From positions 62,001 to 126,000 of the forward strand of contig JAKAQL010000002.1 in NCBI GenBank assembly GCA_021822605.1: a stretch of 64,000 nt of DNA, read 5' to 3'. Below, piece after piece: positions 8,603 through 17,561 of this stretch (positions within the stretch are counted from its first letter, which is position 1; each line of letters begins with the position of its first letter). The notes under the pieces are model-generated. The model was given only the letters and a program-made list of their open reading frames with translations, did not search any database and was not told the DNA's origin. Origin of the DNA: Actinomycetes bacterium (GTDB lineage Bacteria > Actinomycetota > Acidimicrobiia > Acidimicrobiales > Acidimicrobiaceae). The position numbers and the translations under genes are program-made.

Positions 8603-9508
8603 ATGAGAACCTTGCCGTTGTCTGAGGGCAGTTGGGACTGGACCAAGACCGTAAAGGGTTATGTCGGTCTTACCAAGCCACGTATTATCGAGCTGCTTCT
8701 GATCACGACAGTTCCGGCGATGGTGGTTGCCAAACATGACCTTCCCTCAATTTGGTCAATTGTCATCACCGTGGCCGGAGGGACGCTGGCTGCCGGTGGC
8801 GCCAATGCGGTGAATATGTGGTACGACCGCGATATCGATGCCCTCATGAAGCGGACGAAGAATCGGCCGCTGGTGACCGGTGCTGTCTCACCAACTGGGG
8901 CGCTCATCTTTGCGATAGCCTTGGAGGTTGTCGCCTTTGCGATGCTCTCCTTCGGTGATAACGTCCTCTCTGCATCGCTCGCCCTCTCGGCCGCACTCTT
9001 CTATGTTTTTATCTATACGATGTGGTTGAAGCGCTCCACTTCACAGAACATCGTGATTGGCGGTGCTGCTGGAGCAGTTCCTGTTCTCGTCGGCTGGGCC
9101 GCGGTTACCGATTCGCTCTCCCTTGCGGCATGGTTGATGTTCCTCGTCATCTTCATCTGGACACCACCACACTTTTGGGGCCTGGCCTTTCGTTACTCTG
9201 ACGACTACAGCGCGGCGGGGGTGCCGATGCTCCCGTCCGTCTCCACCCGGAAGCGTTCGGCACGCGATATCTTGATCTACACCTTCGTCTTGGCTGCGAC
9301 CACCGGGGCGCTCGGTTTCGCCGCTCATCTTGGCTGGGTCTACGCCGTTGCTGCGGTCGCACTCAATGCGGGCTTCATCGGGTACGCCATCAAGCTGTAC
9401 CGGGATCTCACCCCCAAAGTAGCGATGCGAATGTTCTCCTACTCCATCACGTATCTTTCATTGCTGTTCATCGGGATGGCGGTCGATGTGGCGGTGCGGG
9501 GTCACTGA
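8603..9508 (+). CDS. ctaB: protoheme IX farnesyltransferase (heme O synthase)
   Basis: Adds farnesyl to heme B to make heme O, the precursor of heme A for the oxidase. The 301-residue polytopic protein carries the prenyltransferase Asp motif NMWYDRDID (N71, D75, D79) and the second motif YSDDYSAAGVPMLP, with KNRPLVTG after the first. About nine hydrophobic segments are visible. It begins the oxidase cluster and its stop overlaps the next start (TGATG), so coupling with the thioredoxin gene is likely. Confidence 0.95.
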   Translation: MRTLPLSEGSWDWTKTVKGYVGLTKPRIIELLLITTVPAMVVAKHDLPSIWSIVITVAGGTLAAGGANAVNMWYDRDIDALMKRTKNRPLVTGAVSPTGALIFAIALEVVAFAMLSFGDNVLSASLALSAALFYVFIYTMWLKRSTSQNIVIGGAAGAVPVLVGWAAVTDSLSLAAWLMFLVIFIWTPPHFWGLAFRYSDDYSAAGVPMLPSVSTRKRSARDILIYTFVLAATTGALGFAAHLGWVYAVAAVALNAGFIGYAIKLYRDLTPKVAMRMFSYSITYLSLLFIGMAVDVAVRGH

Positions 9509-10128
9509 TGACGGTGCACGAGCCACTTGAGCGGCCACGGGTCTCTCGTTTCGGACCTCGAGTGTGGATCTTTTTGCTCGCGGTATCTGCGATCATTGTC
9601 GTTGCGTATGCGGTCTATGCCGCGTCACTCTCCGGGGGAAGCTCAGCGACGGCATCTGCCTCGTTAGGGTCGATCTCACAGTCCTCCTCTGGTAAGTCAC
9701 CGCTCGTCGGTAAGCCGGTGCCAAGCTTTTCGCTACCGGAGCTGACGGCTGACGCGAAGCCAGCCTCTGGCTCATTGTCTCCTGGAGATTTCTTGGGCCA
9801 TCCCCTCGTGATCAACTTCTTCGCTTCGTGGTGTACAGCTTGCCAGGCAGAGACACCGATGGTTGCCACTGTTGCTCAAGGTTTGGGCCAGAAGGTCGAC
9901 TTTCTTGGTATCGATGAGAACGATACTCCCTCTAAGGCCGAGGCGTTTGTCGCCAAGGATCATGTTGACTACCCTGTCGTCACCGATCACGCCTCGCTTC
10001 AGGGCAAGTATCTCCTGATAGGTTTGCCGACCACTGTCTTTGTTGCGGCGAGTGGCAAGGTCGTTGCGGTGGTGCAGGGTCAGATGACGAAAGGGATTCT
10101 GGAACATTGGGTCTCTCGGATTGAATGA
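9508..10128 (+). CDS. membrane-anchored TlpA/ResA-like thioredoxin
   Basis: 206 residues: a signal anchor (about residues 20-40), a Ser/Gly linker, then a thioredoxin domain with WCTACQ (C109, C112) and the cis-proline loop GLPTTVF. Family members act outside the membrane, reducing disulfides in cytochrome c or in the CuA site of CoxB. Its place between ctaB and the oxidase subunits suggests a role in CuA-site maturation here. Start overlaps the ctaB stop. Confidence 0.88.
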   Translation: MTVHEPLERPRVSRFGPRVWIFLLAVSAIIVVAYAVYAASLSGGSSATASASLGSISQSSSGKSPLVGKPVPSFSLPELTADAKPASGSLSPGDFLGHPLVINFFASWCTACQAETPMVATVAQGLGQKVDFLGIDENDTPSKAEAFVAKDHVDYPVVTDHASLQGKYLLIGLPTTVFVAASGKVVAVVQGQMTKGILEHWVSRIE

Positions 10129-10251: not shown

Positions 10252-10932
10252 TTGAATAAGGGTGCAAGAATTTCGATTGTTCTTGTCTCTGCCGCAGTCG
10301 CCGTTGGATTGATTTTGTTTGGTATCTTTGGGTATCTACGAACCTATCCGCCGACGGTTGTGTTTACGCCTTCTCCTACGCAACCACATACGGTTGATGT
10401 GACGTTACAGGTTGAGGGAGCAGTTGGAACAGGGCCTCACCCAAACTGGGTGGGCTGGTACGCAAAGGATGCACAGGGTAAGTGGGTTCGTACGACCCTC
10501 TATCAGGTGCCTGAGAAGACCTATGTGCACGTGACGGTGTACGAGTATGATTCGGGCGGTCCGCTTCGCAATCCATACTGGGGCAAGATCACGGGCACGG
10601 TTGGAAACGATGCTGTCTTGAACGGCAAGAAGGTAAGTGTGCTTGATGCTGCCGAGGGAAATGGCATTGGTCATACGATGGTCGCTCCTGCGTTGAACCT
10701 GTCGGTCCCCATGTGGGGGCTGTCCGGCACCGAGAAGACCTTCTGCCAGTCAGGGCCTTGTACGTTGGCGAACGCGCACAATACGGAGACCTTTACCTTC
10801 TACACCGGCAACCATCCGCATAACTATCGTTGGCAGTGCTTCATTCCGTGTGGCGCTGGCTTCCTGAATGGGAACGGTGGCCCGATGGCGGAGACCGGCT
10901 ACATGGCAGGCTTCTGGAAGGTGGTGGCCTGA
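10252..10932 (+). CDS. COX2-like cupredoxin with an incomplete CuA-type site
   Basis: TTG start (AAAGGGGG just upstream), 226 residues. One N-terminal membrane anchor (about 7-28), then a beta-rich domain. Its end resembles the CoxB cupredoxin fold: H141 in GHTMVAP, then C196 and C200 in CFIPCG, and M212. The C-x3-C spacing is that of CuA, but the second ligand histidine (C-x3-H in CoxB) is replaced by Phe, and the Met is displaced by a Gly/Asn loop. An extra pair, C165/C170, may form a disulfide. The stop overlaps the coxB start by one base, so it is probably an accessory subunit or electron donor of the same complex. Its metal content is unknown. Confidence 0.7.
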   Translation: MNKGARISIVLVSAAVAVGLILFGIFGYLRTYPPTVVFTPSPTQPHTVDVTLQVEGAVGTGPHPNWVGWYAKDAQGKWVRTTLYQVPEKTYVHVTVYEYDSGGPLRNPYWGKITGTVGNDAVLNGKKVSVLDAAEGNGIGHTMVAPALNLSVPMWGLSGTEKTFCQSGPCTLANAHNTETFTFYTGNHPHNYRWQCFIPCGAGFLNGNGGPMAETGYMAGFWKVVA

Positions 10933-11849
10933 TGGCGGTGACCCAAGAGGACATGAACGAGCGCAAGGCCTACGCAAAGAAGGCCGGTTGGCGGATCTTT
11001 GCGATCTGGCTCGTGCTGTCGCTTATCGGTGTAGCGCTGGTACTCTATGTTTGGGGACCACATATGCCTCCAGGCGATATGACTACCTCTGCTGCCAGTC
11101 AGCAGTTCGACTTCAAGGTTCTGACCGCGATGGTGGTCCCGGTGCTGTTGATGGTCTGGGTCTATGGGGCTTGGTCGTTGATCAACTTCCATGCGACTAA
11201 GGATGATCGTGGTGATGGGATTCCATTGCGTGGAAATCGCAAGGTTCAGGGTATCTGGTACGTTGGCTCTGCAGTGCTGGTGCTATTCCTTGCGGGCTTT
11301 GGTACCTATGAGTTGATCAACGGAAACGGTGTTGGCTCTGGTGAAGGTCCCTCTCCGATCTGGAAGCCGACGGCGAAGCACATGTTGGTGGTTCAGGTCA
11401 TCGCCCAACAGTGGCGCTTTACCTACCGCTGGCCTCAGTTTGGTGGGATGGAGACGACCTCCATCGATCTGCCGACCGACACGACGATCCAGTTTGACGT
11501 GACGTCGCTCGATGTGATTCACGACTTTTGGGCGTATCAGCTCGGTGTGAAGGCTGACGCGAACCCTGATGTCAATAACGTTGCGTACACGACCACCTCA
11601 AACCAACAGGGACGTTTCACGGTCCGCTGTGACGAGCTCTGTGGTATCTGGCACGGTGCGATGTATAACTATGGACATGTGGTGTCGAAATCAGCGTTCT
11701 ATTCATGGGCGTCAAGTATGGAGACGCAGAATGCTTCGGTAACGAAGCTTCTGCCTCCCTTCGCGACTACCTATACTCCTTCGTACTCCGGTGCGGGTGG
11801 AGGTTATTATCCGTCGTATGACCCTAACGGTCATGCGGTTACGTACTAG
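10932..11849 (+). CDS. ctaC: cytochrome c oxidase subunit II
   Basis: Carries CuA, the entry point for electrons from the donor. ATG 10932 overlaps the preceding stop; a longer in-frame extension lacks support. The product is 305 residues with hydrophobic segments at about 21-41, 63-84 and 107-127, then the cupredoxin domain. All CuA ligands are present: H197 in HDFWAYQLG, then C233, E235, C237, H241 and M244 in CDELCGIWHGAM. WRFTYRWP fits the aromatic patch that accepts electrons. The Tyr/Gly/Pro-rich tail is unusual. Next comes coxA. Confidence 0.95.
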   Translation: MAVTQEDMNERKAYAKKAGWRIFAIWLVLSLIGVALVLYVWGPHMPPGDMTTSAASQQFDFKVLTAMVVPVLLMVWVYGAWSLINFHATKDDRGDGIPLRGNRKVQGIWYVGSAVLVLFLAGFGTYELINGNGVGSGEGPSPIWKPTAKHMLVVQVIAQQWRFTYRWPQFGGMETTSIDLPTDTTIQFDVTSLDVIHDFWAYQLGVKADANPDVNNVAYTTTSNQQGRFTVRCDELCGIWHGAMYNYGHVVSKSAFYSWASSMETQNASVTKLLPPFATTYTPSYSGAGGGYYPSYDPNGHAVTY

Positions 11850-11862
11850 AAGGAGCTTGTAA

Positions 11863-13812
11863 ATGGCAATTGACATGACGCCAGCTGCCGGGGTGGGTTC
11901 TCCAACCGATCTCGAAGCTAGGGGCCTCAAAGCCGCCAAGCCTTGGTTCACTGGCAATATGCTCACAGCCTTCATAGGTGGGGCGATCGGCTACGCCTTT
12001 GGACACTGGCTCGGTAACGCCATTGCTTCGAACTATTCCGTGGTTGCCGATGGGGCTGGCAATGAGGTAGCGATCTACCTCTCACTCATCATCGGTTGTC
12101 TCGGGTGGTTCGTGGGGCTTGGTGCGCTGAACTATCCGATCCAAAAGCTTTTGGGTCTAGAGCCGATCGATCCGCCGAAGAGTGAGAAGCGGTCGTTCTG
12201 GGAACACTTCACCTATTCGACCGATCACAAGGTCGTCGGCGTGCAGTATCTGTTCGGCATGTTGCTCTACTTCCTCGTTGCAGGACTCTTGGCGCTTGGT
12301 ATTCGTACCGAGCTGCTCTCTCCGGTGAACCACATCTGGGCTCCGGATACCTACATCGAGATCGTAGGCGAGCACGGCACCATGATGATGATGATGATGA
12401 CCTCTGTCATTATGGGTCCATTCGGTAACTACCTGATTCCGCTCATGATTGGGTCGAAGAAGATGGCGTTCCCGCGCCTTGAGGCTACGTCTTTCTGGTT
12501 CACGGTTCCGTCTTTCTTCATTCTGCTCTCTGCTCTATGGCAGGGTGGTTTCCAGTCTGGTTGGACGGGGTATGCGCCGCTGTCGATTCAAGGAGGTCCG
12601 GGTCAGAGCGACTATGATGTCGCCTTCGCCTTGATGGCACTGTCGATGGTGGCGGCGTCGATTAATATGACAGCAACCATCATTAACTACCGTGCTCCGG
12701 GTATGCGTTGGTCACGTATGCCAATCTTGGCATGGGGTATGATCACTGTGGCCTTCACAATGCTCCTCTCCGTGCCGGTCCTCTTCGATGGACTGTACGT
12801 GATGAGCCTCGATCGAGGTGTGCGCACCGCAATGCTCTATGCTGGTCACGGCGGTAGTTCGTTCCTTTGGGAGAACTTGTTCTGGTTCTTTGGGCACCCG
12901 GAGGTGTATCTGCTCGCGTTGCCTGGCTTTGCACTCACGGTCGAGTTGTTGCCGGTCTTTGCGCGCAAACCTATCTTCGCGTTGAAGACATCGACGGCTG
13001 GTCTCATCGGGGTCGCCGTGTTGAGCTTCTTTGTCTGGCAGCACCACCTGTTCATGTCGGGGATGAATCCGGATATGCGCCCGTTGTTCATGTTGACCAC
13101 CGAGTTGATCTCCATCCCTACTGGATTCCTCTATCTGGTGGCGATGGGTACCGTGTGGCGTGGCAAGATCCGCTTCGAGGTGCCGATGTTGTTCCTCTTG
13201 GCGGTGTTCTGGAACTTCCTCTGGGGTGGCGTCACAGGCGTCTACAACTCGGACGTTCCGGTCGATGCGCTCGTTCATGGAAGCTTCTTCGTGATGGCGC
13301 ACTTCCACTTCACCATTATGGGGCAGCTCATCTTCGCGGTCTTTGCGGGTGTCTACTACTACGTCCCGTTGATCTTTGGTATCAGATTGAATGACAAGCT
13401 TGGAAAGATCAGTTTCTGGATCATCTTTGTGGCCTTTAACTCGACCTTCCTCCCGTTGTTCATGATCGGCCTGTTGGGTCAACCGCGGCGTGTCTTTGAG
13501 TATGCCCTCCGTTTGCAGCACCTGAACCAGTGGGTTTCGGTCTCTTCCTATGTGTTGGGCTTTGGTATTTTGCTGTACGTGATCAACCTCATCTGGTCGC
13601 TCGCGGTCACCAGAACGCCTGCTGGCCCCAACCCGTGGGAGTCTCGAGGTCTCGAGTGGCAGGTTGGGTATCCGGTGCCTCGTGATAACTTCGAGAAGGT
13701 ACCAGTTGTCCTTCGGGATCCCTACGGTTATGGAACCGGTGATGACACACCGGTGGCGGACCTGAATCCTGTTGGTGATATGGCAGCTGTGGTGACAGGA
13801 GGTGATGCATAA
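11863..13812 (+). CDS. ctaD: heme-copper oxidase subunit I, divergent proton channels
   Basis: Catalytic subunit reducing oxygen to water. Redox-site ligands are intact: H171 (EHGTMM) and H482 (HFHF) for the low-spin heme, H480 for the high-spin heme, and H345 with Y349 (HPEVY) plus H394/H395 for CuB. E347 of the A-type HPEVY motif is kept. Two usual channel residues are not: the D-channel aspartate (GAPDMAFPR in the family) is Lys200 (GSKKMAFPR), and the K-channel lysine (PTGVKVF) is Leu423 (PTGFLYL). A roughly 110-residue N-terminal extension with two membrane helices precedes the canonical STDHKVVG start. 649 residues. Lies 13 bases after coxB and overlaps coxC by one base. Confidence 0.95.
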   Translation: MAIDMTPAAGVGSPTDLEARGLKAAKPWFTGNMLTAFIGGAIGYAFGHWLGNAIASNYSVVADGAGNEVAIYLSLIIGCLGWFVGLGALNYPIQKLLGLEPIDPPKSEKRSFWEHFTYSTDHKVVGVQYLFGMLLYFLVAGLLALGIRTELLSPVNHIWAPDTYIEIVGEHGTMMMMMMTSVIMGPFGNYLIPLMIGSKKMAFPRLEATSFWFTVPSFFILLSALWQGGFQSGWTGYAPLSIQGGPGQSDYDVAFALMALSMVAASINMTATIINYRAPGMRWSRMPILAWGMITVAFTMLLSVPVLFDGLYVMSLDRGVRTAMLYAGHGGSSFLWENLFWFFGHPEVYLLALPGFALTVELLPVFARKPIFALKTSTAGLIGVAVLSFFVWQHHLFMSGMNPDMRPLFMLTTELISIPTGFLYLVAMGTVWRGKIRFEVPMLFLLAVFWNFLWGGVTGVYNSDVPVDALVHGSFFVMAHFHFTIMGQLIFAVFAGVYYYVPLIFGIRLNDKLGKISFWIIFVAFNSTFLPLFMIGLLGQPRRVFEYALRLQHLNQWVSVSSYVLGFGILLYVINLIWSLAVTRTPAGPNPWESRGLEWQVGYPVPRDNFEKVPVVLRDPYGYGTGDDTPVADLNPVGDMAAVVTGGDA

Positions 13813-14471
13813 TGGCGACTGATGTTCAGTCTTCTGATGCACAGCCGGTCATTGACGAGGAGCAGTACTATCATGATGCCCAGTTGGGCGCGCTTTGGAC
13901 TGCTTCCCGTACCCTGATTCCGGTCGTTGCAGCGACATTCGGTGGCATCTATTTCGCCTACTTCTACCTGCGATCGCTGAACTCGAACGGGTTGTGGGAT
14001 CCACATGGGGCAACGGCGTCGAAGATCATCGGGTTGTCGGTGCTGCTGCTTGTCCTCGCTGGTACTGCATTCCAGCTGATGGCTGGGCGGCGTTTACGCC
14101 GAGGCTTTAGTACCGACTTCATCGTGGGTACGGCTTCGAACGTGTTATTCCTGGTACTTGCCACCGGGCTGCAGATCTGGGAGCTCACGCGGCTCCCATT
14201 TCCGCCAGCTGCCAGTGGTTATGCAGGGGTCTTTATCGCGTTCGCCCCGATTGATGCTCTCGTCATTGGACTGAGTGCATACTGGGCCTTCACGCTCATG
14301 ATGCGGGCGATTCGTAGCTATAGCTTCTATCGGGCAGATGGTGGTATTGGGGTCTCGGCCCATCGTGCCGCAGAGAACTTCAGGGCGAATCTTGATGGTT
14401 TCGGAGCGTACAGTATCTTCTTTGCGCTGATGTCGGTGCTGTCTTGGTATCTGTTCTACGTTCTGCATTAG
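13812..14471 (+). CDS. ctaE: cytochrome c oxidase subunit III
   Basis: 219 residues with about five membrane helices. FGGIYFAYFYLRSL matches the family's FSYFYLR region, and the C-terminal FGAYSIFFALMSVLSWYLFYV fits the last helix. Subunit III stabilises subunit I during turnover. It is shorter than the seven-helix forms, as in many actinobacterial and archaeal oxidases. ATG overlaps the coxA stop (TAATG). Confidence 0.85.
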   Translation: MATDVQSSDAQPVIDEEQYYHDAQLGALWTASRTLIPVVAATFGGIYFAYFYLRSLNSNGLWDPHGATASKIIGLSVLLLVLAGTAFQLMAGRRLRRGFSTDFIVGTASNVLFLVLATGLQIWELTRLPFPPAASGYAGVFIAFAPIDALVIGLSAYWAFTLMMRAIRSYSFYRADGGIGVSAHRAAENFRANLDGFGAYSIFFALMSVLSWYLFYVLH

Positions 14472-14551: not shown

Positions 14552-15352
14552 ATGATGTCGTTCGTTGTCGATACCCTTCTCTCACTGTTGTGTGTGCTCG
14601 GTGGTCTGTATGTGGTTCGGCGTGCAGGTGGCGTGCGCGGCATGGGAGGACGACTGGGGGTAGCGGTGCTTGCACTGGGAGTCCTCATGAATCCGTTCTC
14701 GGTCGCCTACGCTACTCACTCCCTCTGGTTCCACTCGTTGCTTCTCGTAATTGTCTCGCTGTGGCTCATATTGGTTGTCCTCTCCAAGGAGGTCATCCGC
14801 GGGATCGACCGTATCAGGGATCGAGGTCGTTGGGCCGTCGTCGGTCTCCGGTGGGTCTGGGGGCTCGTCGCACTCCAGGATGTACTCCTTTGGGTGGGCT
14901 TTCAGGATGGTTTTGAACATGCCGCGACGAGTGACCCACTGCTCCTGGCACTGTTGACCTACGTTGAGGTTTTCGTTACTGGGGTGGTGGTGTATCTGCT
15001 CTCTGGTGATGGCCGACCTCAGGTGACCCACGTCCGCCAAGTGATCATCGCTTGGTCCTCGGCCATGGTGACCATGGCCCTAGGGGTTTCGTTGGGGCTT
15101 TCTGGTCCTTGGTTTGGTTTCGTCTCGGCCTCCGCCGCGGCGCTCCACCAGGAGGCGGAGCAGCAGATCGCTGCGGTGATCTTCGTTATCCTTGGAGGTG
15201 CTCCTTGGTTTCTTATTGGCACCCAGAAGATGCGCCTTTGGCTTGAGTCAGAGGAGCGTGAATCGGTGGTTAGTTTTGTCTCGCCCGTGCATCGCTTTGG
15301 GCGCTCGGTAAAGGTTAATCAGGTGAGGCGGGGGCGCGTTGAAGGGAGGTGA
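14552..15352 (+). CDS. CtaG-like cytochrome oxidase assembly membrane protein
   Basis: 266 residues, six to seven membrane helices. The C-terminal HQEAEQQIAAVIFVILGGAP matches the DQQxAGxxMWxPG element of the caa3-type CtaG family, and a His in the early helix SLWFHSLLL fits the conserved membrane His. Family members help insert copper into oxidase. Follows coxC by 80 bases. The DQ of the motif reads EQ here, so the assignment is reasonable but not certain. ATG 14552 or 14555. Confidence 0.68.
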   Translation: MMSFVVDTLLSLLCVLGGLYVVRRAGGVRGMGGRLGVAVLALGVLMNPFSVAYATHSLWFHSLLLVIVSLWLILVVLSKEVIRGIDRIRDRGRWAVVGLRWVWGLVALQDVLLWVGFQDGFEHAATSDPLLLALLTYVEVFVTGVVVYLLSGDGRPQVTHVRQVIIAWSSAMVTMALGVSLGLSGPWFGFVSASAAALHQEAEQQIAAVIFVILGGAPWFLIGTQKMRLWLESEERESVVSFVSPVHRFGRSVKVNQVRRGRVEGR

Positions 15353-15683: not shown

Positions 15684-16214
15684 ATGGCACGGAGTTCGGT
15701 ACTTTTAGACGCGGTGGATGTCGAGCGTGCAGTCGCCCGGATGGCTCATGAGATCATTGAGCGGTTGCATCTATCGCCCGCTACGCCGCGATCATCGTTA
15801 TCGGTGGTGGGTGTGCGCTCGGGTGGGGTCTGGCTTGGCCAGATGTTGTCTGATCGGTTGATGGAGTATGCCAAGCTGGAGATCGCCTTCTCGGAGATCA
15901 ACATTGCGTCATTCCGTGATGATCGACCTCGCACCGCGGTTGTTGATGCCGTTGGGGTTGACCAACGGCTACCCGCAGAGGGTGGAACGGTCATCCTCGT
16001 TGATGATGTGATCCAGAGTGGGAGGACGGCGCGGGCGGCGCTGGAGGCGATCCTCTCGAACTATCGGCCCGCCTTGATTCAGCTGGCGGTGCTGGTTGAC
16101 CGAGGACACCGTGAGCTTCCGATCTGCCCTGATTATGTGGGCAAAAACCTTCCCTCGGCGCTCTCAGAGTACATAGCGGTAACACCTGAGGGTGTCACCA
16201 TCCATCGAGCGTAA
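15684..16214 (+). CDS. pyrR: PyrR, pyrimidine operon regulator / uracil phosphoribosyltransferase
   Basis: 176 residues. The phosphoribosyltransferase PRPP loop is VILVDDVIQSGRTARAAL (about residues 103-120). The C-terminal VDRGHRELPICPDYVGKNLP is characteristic of PyrR and not of plain UPRTs. It binds UMP and then the leader RNA loop located 15 bases before its own start. AAGGAG precedes the ATG by 4 bases. First gene of the pyr operon. The usual following gene, pyrB, is missing; pyrC follows. Confidence 0.96.
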   Translation: MARSSVLLDAVDVERAVARMAHEIIERLHLSPATPRSSLSVVGVRSGGVWLGQMLSDRLMEYAKLEIAFSEINIASFRDDRPRTAVVDAVGVDQRLPAEGGTVILVDDVIQSGRTARAALEAILSNYRPALIQLAVLVDRGHRELPICPDYVGKNLPSALSEYIAVTPEGVTIHRA

Positions 16215-16226
16215 GGAGGGTTTGGA

Positions 16227-17561
16227 TTGCGGACACTCTTTGTGGGTGGAGTTGTCTTCACCGGTCGCGAATTTCGATCGACTGATCTGCTGGTGGTGGA
16301 TGATCGTATCGTTGAGATATGGGCGGGTTCACGCCGTTCCGACGTGGATAGAGTGGTGGATTGTCGCTTTCGAGTAATCGCGCCTTCCTTCATTGACCTC
16401 CACGCTCATCTTCGTTTTCCCGGGGTTGATGAGGTCGATGATCCTGCGAGTATTGTCGCTGCTGGGCTTACTGGTGGCTTCGGTGTGATCGTCGCCATGG
16501 CGAACACCGTCCCCCCCATCGATCGCCTGTCGCGATGGGAGGCGGCGCGAGCGGCATATGAGGGTCTCCCAATTGAGGTCATCCAGGCCGCTACCGTTAC
16601 GATGGGTCGGGAGGGCCAGGAGCTCGTGGACTTCACCGTGCTGGTGGAGGCTGGGGCCCAAGTTTTCAGTGATGATGGTTCTGGTATTCAACGAAGCGAT
16701 GTGATGCGTGATGCTCTGCTGGCCTCCGCGTTCTACGATGTGCTGATCGCCCAGCACAGCGAGGATGCGTTCCTGGCTGGGGACGGGGTCGCGAACGAGG
16801 GTCCCTTGGCAGAGACGTTGGGGCTACACGCGATACCGGAGGTCGCCGAGTCGGTGATGGTTGCTAGGGATATCGAGTTACTGAAGGTGATCCCAGGACG
16901 ACTGCACCTTCAGCATGTGACCTCGCGTGAGTCGTTGAATCTGTTCCGACAGGCAAAGCGTGAGGGCCTACGCATCTCCGGGGAGGTCACCCCCCATCAC
17001 CTATTGCTCACCGACCAGTTGGTGGCTGCTGGTGACTCGAATTTCAAGGTGAACCCACCCCTGCGTTCCCTCTCCACCCAGATGGCGTTGGTGCAGGGGG
17101 TCTTGGATGGGACTTTTGACGTGATCGCCACGGACCATGCTCCTCATCCGCCCTCGCGCAAGGATCTCCCCTTTGCCCAAGCCGCCTTTGGGCTGCTTGG
17201 GCTTGCTGAGGCGATGCCGGTCGCCTGGACGGCGCTTGGACGCAGATTACCGAGTGGGTGGAATGGGTTATCCTTCGATCAGGAGCTGTCGGGCCCGGAG
17301 TGGAGCGCGCTTGGTCATCTGCTGGGTGCGCTCACGACTGGACCAGCTGCCATTCTGGGCCGATCGAGTCGATTGACGCCCGGTGCTCAGGCGGATCTGG
17401 TGGTCCTTGATCCCAATGAGGGGCCGAGAGAGGTCCCGAGCCGTTGGTATCGTTCGAGTAACTCCCCTTACCGCCAAGAGAAACTCGTAGGGCGAGTCGA
17501 TTCGGTTTGGCTTGCGGGGCGCCAAATGGTTGAGGAGGGCGAGGTGGTCACGCGTGTCTGA
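16227..17561 (+). CDS. pyrC: dihydroorotase
   Basis: Cyclises carbamoyl-aspartate to dihydroorotate. A class I enzyme: D57-L-H59-A-H61 in DLHAHLRFPG (zinc ligands), VFSDDGSGI, LHLQHVTS and GEVTPHH (histidines), and ATDHAPHP (catalytic Asp). 444 residues from TTG 16227 with AAGGAGG upstream. Located 12 bases after pyrR; aspartate transcarbamylase, which makes its substrate, is not in the operon. Confidence 0.95.
   Translation: MRTLFVGGVVFTGREFRSTDLLVVDDRIVEIWAGSRRSDVDRVVDCRFRVIAPSFIDLHAHLRFPGVDEVDDPASIVAAGLTGGFGVIVAMANTVPPIDRLSRWEAARAAYEGLPIEVIQAATVTMGREGQELVDFTVLVEAGAQVFSDDGSGIQRSDVMRDALLASAFYDVLIAQHSEDAFLAGDGVANEGPLAETLGLHAIPEVAESVMVARDIELLKVIPGRLHLQHVTSRESLNLFRQAKREGLRISGEVTPHHLLLTDQLVAAGDSNFKVNPPLRSLSTQMALVQGVLDGTFDVIATDHAPHPPSRKDLPFAQAAFGLLGLAEAMPVAWTALGRRLPSGWNGLSFDQELSGPEWSALGHLLGALTTGPAAILGRSSRLTPGAQADLVVLDPNEGPREVPSRWYRSSNSPYRQEKLVGRVDSVWLAGRQMVEEGEVVTRV

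Follow-up and report, generated by a model that had tools for sequence, protein, structure and literature searches.

A family of A-type cytochrome c oxidases with altered proton-input residues in subunits I and II

How does a cytochrome c oxidase take up protons when residues that mark both of its input paths have been replaced? The question is raised by coxA in a stretch of 64,000 nucleotides (the window) from an actinobacterial genome of 2.8 Mb in 120 contigs; among named organisms, this genome is closest to Ferrimicrobium and other Acidimicrobiia. The initial annotation had read Lys at the D-channel entrance, Glu at the neighbouring Asn and Leu in place of the K-channel lysine, and had proposed that proton uptake must use other residues, perhaps as an adaptation to an acidic outside. 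In enzymes of type A1, protons for the reductive half of the cycle come through the K path, and the D path brings in the remaining chemical protons together with every proton that is pumped (PMC8361435).

The oxidase genes and their relatives

The gene belongs to a cluster in the order ctaB, TlpA-like thioredoxin, cupredoxin, coxB, coxA, coxC:

8603..9508, + strand: ctaB, heme O synthase (NF003349, E 1.3e-117, exceeding the cut-off)
9508..10128, + strand: TlpA/ResA-like thioredoxin, a probable copper or disulfide assembly factor (Redoxin, E 1.6e-15)
10252..10932, + strand: AcoP-like membrane-anchored cupredoxin, 226 aa (weak AcoP match and rusticyanin-like model)
10932..11849, + strand: coxB, subunit II, CuA motif CDELCGIWHGAM (CoxB and COX2 profile matches)
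11863..13812, + strand: coxA, subunit I, 649 aa (intact frame without internal stop)
13812..14471, + strand: coxC-like subunit III, 219 aa, divergent (YFAYFY segment; position after coxA)

CoxA matches Pfam COX1 with E 4.4e-115 (385.5 bits, cut-off 34.8) and the NCBIfam CtaD_CoxA equivalog TIGR02891 with 508.5 bits, below the curated cut-off of 670.75. Its architecture is the 12-helix COX1 fold with two additional N-terminal transmembrane helices, which in the AlphaFold model span 33-55 and 68-86 and precede the 12 core helices; compared with R. sphaeroides CcO in VIA, the model gives Z 45.1 and rmsd 2.0 over 484 aligned residues. The COX1 fold and the six histidine metal ligands (H171, H345, H394, H395, H480 and H482) place the protein in the heme-copper oxidase superfamily, and the A1 signature GHPEVY identifies it as a type A cytochrome c oxidase. 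All six histidines are invariant in the 84 rows of the family alignment, as are Glu278 (E347) and Tyr280 (Y349), which bears out the earlier statement that the redox ligands and HPEVY are intact. Residues are numbered here as in Paracoccus subunit I (Pd) unless given in one-letter code. The 84 rows comprise 80 relatives from a genome scan, the window CoxA and three further loci; the relatives come from Ferrimicrobium, Ferrithrix, Acidithrix, Acidiferrimicrobium and Trebonia, from many metagenome-assembled genomes (MAGs) and from many Acidimicrobiia, and the scanned loci are mainly actinobacterial, besides L065 (titled Acidobacteriota) and L057 (uncultured).

Residue equivalences were taken from a MAFFT alignment of CoxA with canonical A-type oxidases, namely plasmid-borne Paracoccus, Bacillus-type and cyo-type proteins and a paralog from the same genome; 17 canonical rows were tallied. 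This paralog, a second COX1 on contig C78, is a canonical CoxA (GAPDMAFPRLNN, PTGIKVF) whose subunit II has the K-channel mouth Glu. The alignment puts K200 at Asp124, E207 at Asn131 and L423 at Lys354, exactly as had been annotated. From the histidine pair to PTG we counted 28 residues directly on the translation, a distance that we take to equal the bovine one; the same stretch is two residues shorter in the C78 paralog. This equal spacing, the match in VIA and the presence of a canonical paralog lead us to reject chance or misalignment, and the alignment is as firm as first claimed. A base error at the three codons is likewise excluded, because the changed residues are conserved across more than 80 genomes, with Lys or Arg at 124 in 83/84 family rows, Glu at 131 in 84/84 and an aliphatic residue at 354 in 83/84.

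The cupredoxin gene is present in 77 of the 80 relatives; in those whose coordinates were checked, it immediately precedes coxB. Its product has no Pfam or NCBIfam match; among solved structures its top sequence match is AcoP of Acidithiobacillus ferrooxidans (weak, E 0.005), the top Foldseek match of its model is rusticyanin (E 3.9e-4), and in VIA rusticyanin, with Z 9, is tied with nitrosocyanin and CupA. The invariant residues are H141, C165, C170, C196, C200 and M212. The ligand set of AcoP (His, Cys, His, Met, in C-x6-H-x4-M) is not found, the window protein having C196-x3-C200-x11-M212 and, unlike A. ferrooxidans AcoP, no loop His to bind copper; its copper site may therefore be unusual. 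AcoP binds the CcO of A. ferrooxidans, an iron oxidiser whose CcO is of the a type, and its gene is found in acidophile CcO clusters (PMC4059628). The window cluster is similar in having an AcoP-type gene, which, beside coxB, links it to the oxidases of acidophilic iron oxidisers. The search of the source genome for a rusticyanin gene found none; its heme A synthase gene lies elsewhere in that genome.

On the other side of coxA, a coxC-like gene follows in 74/80 relatives; the window's coxC-like protein itself has no Pfam match. Behind it, 14552-15352 encodes a 266-aa membrane protein, possibly a CtaG-like assembly factor, with no Pfam match above threshold and a counterpart in 4/80 related loci. 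Farther downstream, 15684-17561 holds pyrR and a dihydroorotase-like gene; pyrR-like DNA is found near the oxidase cluster in 24/80 relatives.

Residues of the K and D paths

The positions that bear on proton input and exit are these (all + strand; counts are family rows unless noted):

11247..11249, + strand: subunit II Gln in place of the Glu at the K-channel mouth (yeast Glu82, Pd E78)
12427..12429, + strand: N189 at Asn113, D-channel residue retained (79/84)
12460..12462, + strand: K200, codon AAG, at Asp124, the D-channel entrance (R 71, K 12, G 1 of 84)
12481..12483, + strand: E207, codon GAG, at Asn131, the Asn gate of the D channel (Glu 84/84)
12664..12666, + strand: N268 at Asn199, D-channel residue retained (84/84)
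12901..12903, + strand: E347 at Glu278, the inner end of the D channel, retained (84/84)
12940..12942, + strand: V360 at Ser291, K-channel serine gone (family: A, G, S, T, M, L, others)
13102..13104, + strand: E414 at 345, a new invariant Glu in helix VIII (84/84; never Glu in Lys354 enzymes)
13111..13113, + strand: S417 at 348, a new invariant Ser in helix VIII (84/84; Ala in 16/17 canonical rows)
13129..13131, + strand: L423, codon CTC, at Lys354, K-channel lysine gone (I 69, L 12, V 2, T 1 of 84)
13279..13281, + strand: G473 at Asp404, in the Mg-site region near the exit side (Gly 84/84)

Sousa (2011) lists as type A1 channel residues Asp124, Asn199, Asn113, Asn131, Tyr35, Ser134, Ser193 and Glu278 for the D path and Lys354, Thr351, Ser291 and Tyr280 for the K path, and reports that only 4/1216 sequences lack the residues of their type, all of them near type B (PMC3084760). 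The window CoxA misses five of these twelve. On the K side, Lys354 and Ser291 are absent, and Thr351 (T420) and Tyr280 are present in 84/84 rows; position 291, which is Ser in 16 of the 17 canonical rows and Thr in the other, is under no constraint in the family. The mouth site in subunit II is Gln in 72 of 82 family sequences, Ser in 5, Ala in 1 and Val in 1, with the Glu still present in 3/82. Because the mouth Glu has gone as well, the K path is, to judge by these residues, dismantled in both subunits, which is more thorough than the initial annotation saw.

The loss is accompanied by a gain in helix VIII. Glu345 stands nine residues N-terminal of position 354 and three N-terminal of Ser348, at a site where canonical enzymes have a non-acidic residue. 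From helix phase and alignment, Glu345 and Ser348 would lie two to three helix turns from the lost lysine in the direction of the active site, adjoining Thr351.

The D path gives another picture. Tyr35 (Y129, in 83/84 rows, the remaining row being a gap), Asn113, Ser134 (S210, 74/84), Asn199 and Glu278 are all in place, and Asp124, Asn131 and Ser193 are absent, the last replaced by M262 (Met in 71/84 rows). The path thus looks retained and altered at its mouth, the carboxylate having shifted from 124 to 131, seven residues onward. The need for other residues in proton uptake is supported; loss of the whole D channel is unsupported, because only the entrance Asp and Ser193 are gone and a Glu is invariant at the Asn131 site. 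On the exit side, Arg473, Arg474 and Trp164 are invariant in the 84 rows. Asp404, which is Gly in the family, adjoins the Mg-site residue His403; Gly is also found there in three of the intermediates without Lys354 that are described below.

Compared with the A1 aa3 oxidases of Paracoccus, Rhodobacter and mitochondria, the enzyme shares the fold, the metal ligands, GHPEVY, most D-path residues, the exit-side Arg pair and a CuA-bearing subunit II, and differs by lacking Asp124, Asn131, Ser193, Ser291, Lys354 and the subunit II mouth Glu and by having Glu131, Glu345, Ser348, Gly404 and the two extra N-terminal helices. B-type (ba3) oxidases also lack Lys at 354 and have Thr at 351, but the ba3 protein compared by hhalign has Thr at the Lys position and Leu at 345, and type B oxidases have no D path (PMC3084760); the alternative K channel of that type (Thr, Ser, Tyr) is not seen here, L423 occupying position 354 and V360 position 291. 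Lys354 is equally absent from C-type (cbb3) oxidases, but these are without CuA and carry their tyrosine on a different helix. A cbb3-like K path was rejected as the source of Glu345, since CcoN has Met or Val at 345 in the two proteins compared.

For the channel residues of oxidases from acidophiles, our search of the open literature gave a single match. In its main text, this work describes a 2TM COX1 clade that has two extra N-terminal helices and includes acidophilic iron oxidisers, and reports K- and D-channel variants in family A, with repeated K-channel loss (Degli Esposti 2021, PMC8239418). The window enzyme is like that clade in helices 33-55 and 68-86, in its acidophile carriers and in the loss of its K channel. 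Loss of the K lysine is thus already known. The Glu345/Ser348 pair, the corresponding change in subunit II and the shift from Asp124 to Glu131 were not found in the literature covered, main-text passages of PMC8239418 included.

Linkage and order of the changes

To see how the changes travel together, we added 40 further actinobacterial loci from other lineages to the co-occurrence survey. Among the actinobacterial Lys354 enzymes with a readable subunit II, the mouth Glu is present in 43/43 and Glu345 in 0/43. Conversely, all seven enzymes outside the family that lack Lys354 and have a readable subunit II (L096, L097, L098, L099, L105, L118 and L129) are without the mouth Glu and have both Glu345 and Ser348. 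For L118, the Leu in subunit II was read first, and subunit I afterwards gave Leu354, Glu345 and Ser348. L105 and L118 form a separate second A1 lineage, with Leu354, Glu345, Ser348 and no mouth Glu in subunit II, and with canonical Asp124 and Asn131.

In a phylogeny from which the trait columns had been left out, positions 354 and 345 each change on two branches, which are the same for both, and positions 124 and 131 change once, on one branch within the first clade lacking the lysine. The hypothesis that Glu345 arose only once is rejected (p-AU 0.00095), for a group that was chosen after viewing a first tree. The link between Lys354 loss and Glu345 gain is supported by only two independent origins, and the pattern is consistent with it rather than statistically strong. 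In enzymes such as L098, L100, L101 and L129 the K path is lost and the D entrance is canonical; they are living intermediates, and the order of change on the tree is K path first and D entrance second. A different combination is found in L090, on a Bradyrhizobium plasmid (NZ_CP082163.1), whose CoxA has Asn at 124, Val at 113, Glu at 199 and Gln at 354, without Glu345; the subunit II of that cluster bears a cytochrome c domain.

How protons may reach the active site

Leu423, Val360 and the subunit II Gln close the K path, and therefore the D path is the sole recognisable input that remains. With about equal weight for and against, we propose an aa3-type oxidase in which the modified D path is this one input and Glu345 and Ser348 serve a stub of the K path by the active site. 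All cytoplasmic protons would then enter by the modified D path and pass through Glu278 to the active site, and Glu345 and Ser348 would donate protons locally or balance charge for the active-site Tyr280 in the reductive half cycle, the part of the cycle usually served by Lys354. The pumping ratio, as far as can be told from residues, may be lowered. We advance more tentatively the reading of a natural single-input A-type oxidase that has lost the K path in both subunits, with Glu345 and Ser348 taking over its job and the D carboxylate moved from 124 to 131; on that same tentative reading, evolution would here have produced the equivalent of an engineered double mutant. In Rhodobacter, the D132N/N139D double mutant of Branden et al. 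(2006), a study cited by PMC8361435 and PMC4550891, reportedly regained the pumping lost in N139D alone, and by analogy the family resembles this pattern, with Lys or Arg and a Glu instead.

These readings have to be weighed against others. The enzyme could be a naturally decoupled oxidase, in which Glu131 acts like the Asp of the N131D/N139D mutants and turnover proceeds without pumping, which we regard as unlikely, if still worth serious thought. Decoupling would suit iron oxidation with an energy span too small for pumping: the pathway is termed poorly energetic (PMC4059628), and by our own estimate the span from Fe(II) to O2 at pH 2 is about 0.34 V, against about 0.5 V for two charges per electron. 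Single-residue changes near the D entrance lower or uncouple pumping (PMC8361435), and the title of PDB 3ehb names a decoupling mutant of the D pathway. However, the N131D/N139D mutants retain the entrance Asp where the family has Lys or Arg and, therefore, a less negative net charge, and the invariance of the exit-side Arg473, Arg474 and Trp164 also speaks against decoupling. Going by the D132N/N139D double mutant, a less negative charge reportedly favours coupling. Moreover, the family is also present in Trebonia and in peat MAGs, organisms that are not known as iron oxidisers.

A more radical proposal, which we find improbable, is that an unrecognised input path replaces both channels, for example at the interface of subunits I and II with Glu345 and the conserved Thr or Ser of subunit II helix 2. 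Glu345 does lie within its helix and is invariant, and position 141 of the subunit II alignment is Thr in 73/82 family sequences and Pro in 18/24 other enzymes, but such a path leaves the conservation of Asn113, Ser134, Asn199 and Glu278 unexplained. We also regard it as very improbable that the acidic outside supplies the protons used to form water, on the pattern of cytochrome c-dependent nitric oxide reductase, Glu345 then corresponding to the helix VIII Glu of that enzyme. Such uptake would be energetically easy at pH 2, and the helix VIII Glu is close to the active site in sequence; yet the D path is conserved, the chemistry's energy would go unconserved, hhalign with NorB left the helix VIII region unaligned, and neither reductase motif, H-X-(Arom)-X-E or HHX(Arom)(Arom)X17E (PMC3084760), is found in CoxA, which has HPEVY and HHLFM and whose Glu414 stands two residues nearer to HH than the motif's Glu. 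As for an inactive enzyme or pseudogene-like remnant, the absence of two textbook channel residues could suggest it, but we give it next to no credence, with an open frame, metal ligands, Tyr280 and Glu278 invariant throughout the family, and the genes for subunits I, II and III and the cupredoxin staying together in relatives.

The suggested adaptation to an acidic outside would agree with where the named carriers live and with the AcoP-like gene next to coxB; the D entrance, however, faces the near-neutral cytoplasm. Fe(II)-respiring Ferrimicrobium cells show a-type cytochromes (PMC5143472).

Whether A-type oxidases need both inputs, and what controls their pumping ratio, has been studied mainly in engineered mutants. 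The family described here is a set of natural enzymes with stepwise changes, whose host cells also have a canonical paralog, and it allows the roles of Lys354, Asn131 and the entrance Asp to be tested in proteins preserved by evolution. It may also reveal how respiration proceeds when the pH difference is very large or the redox span small.
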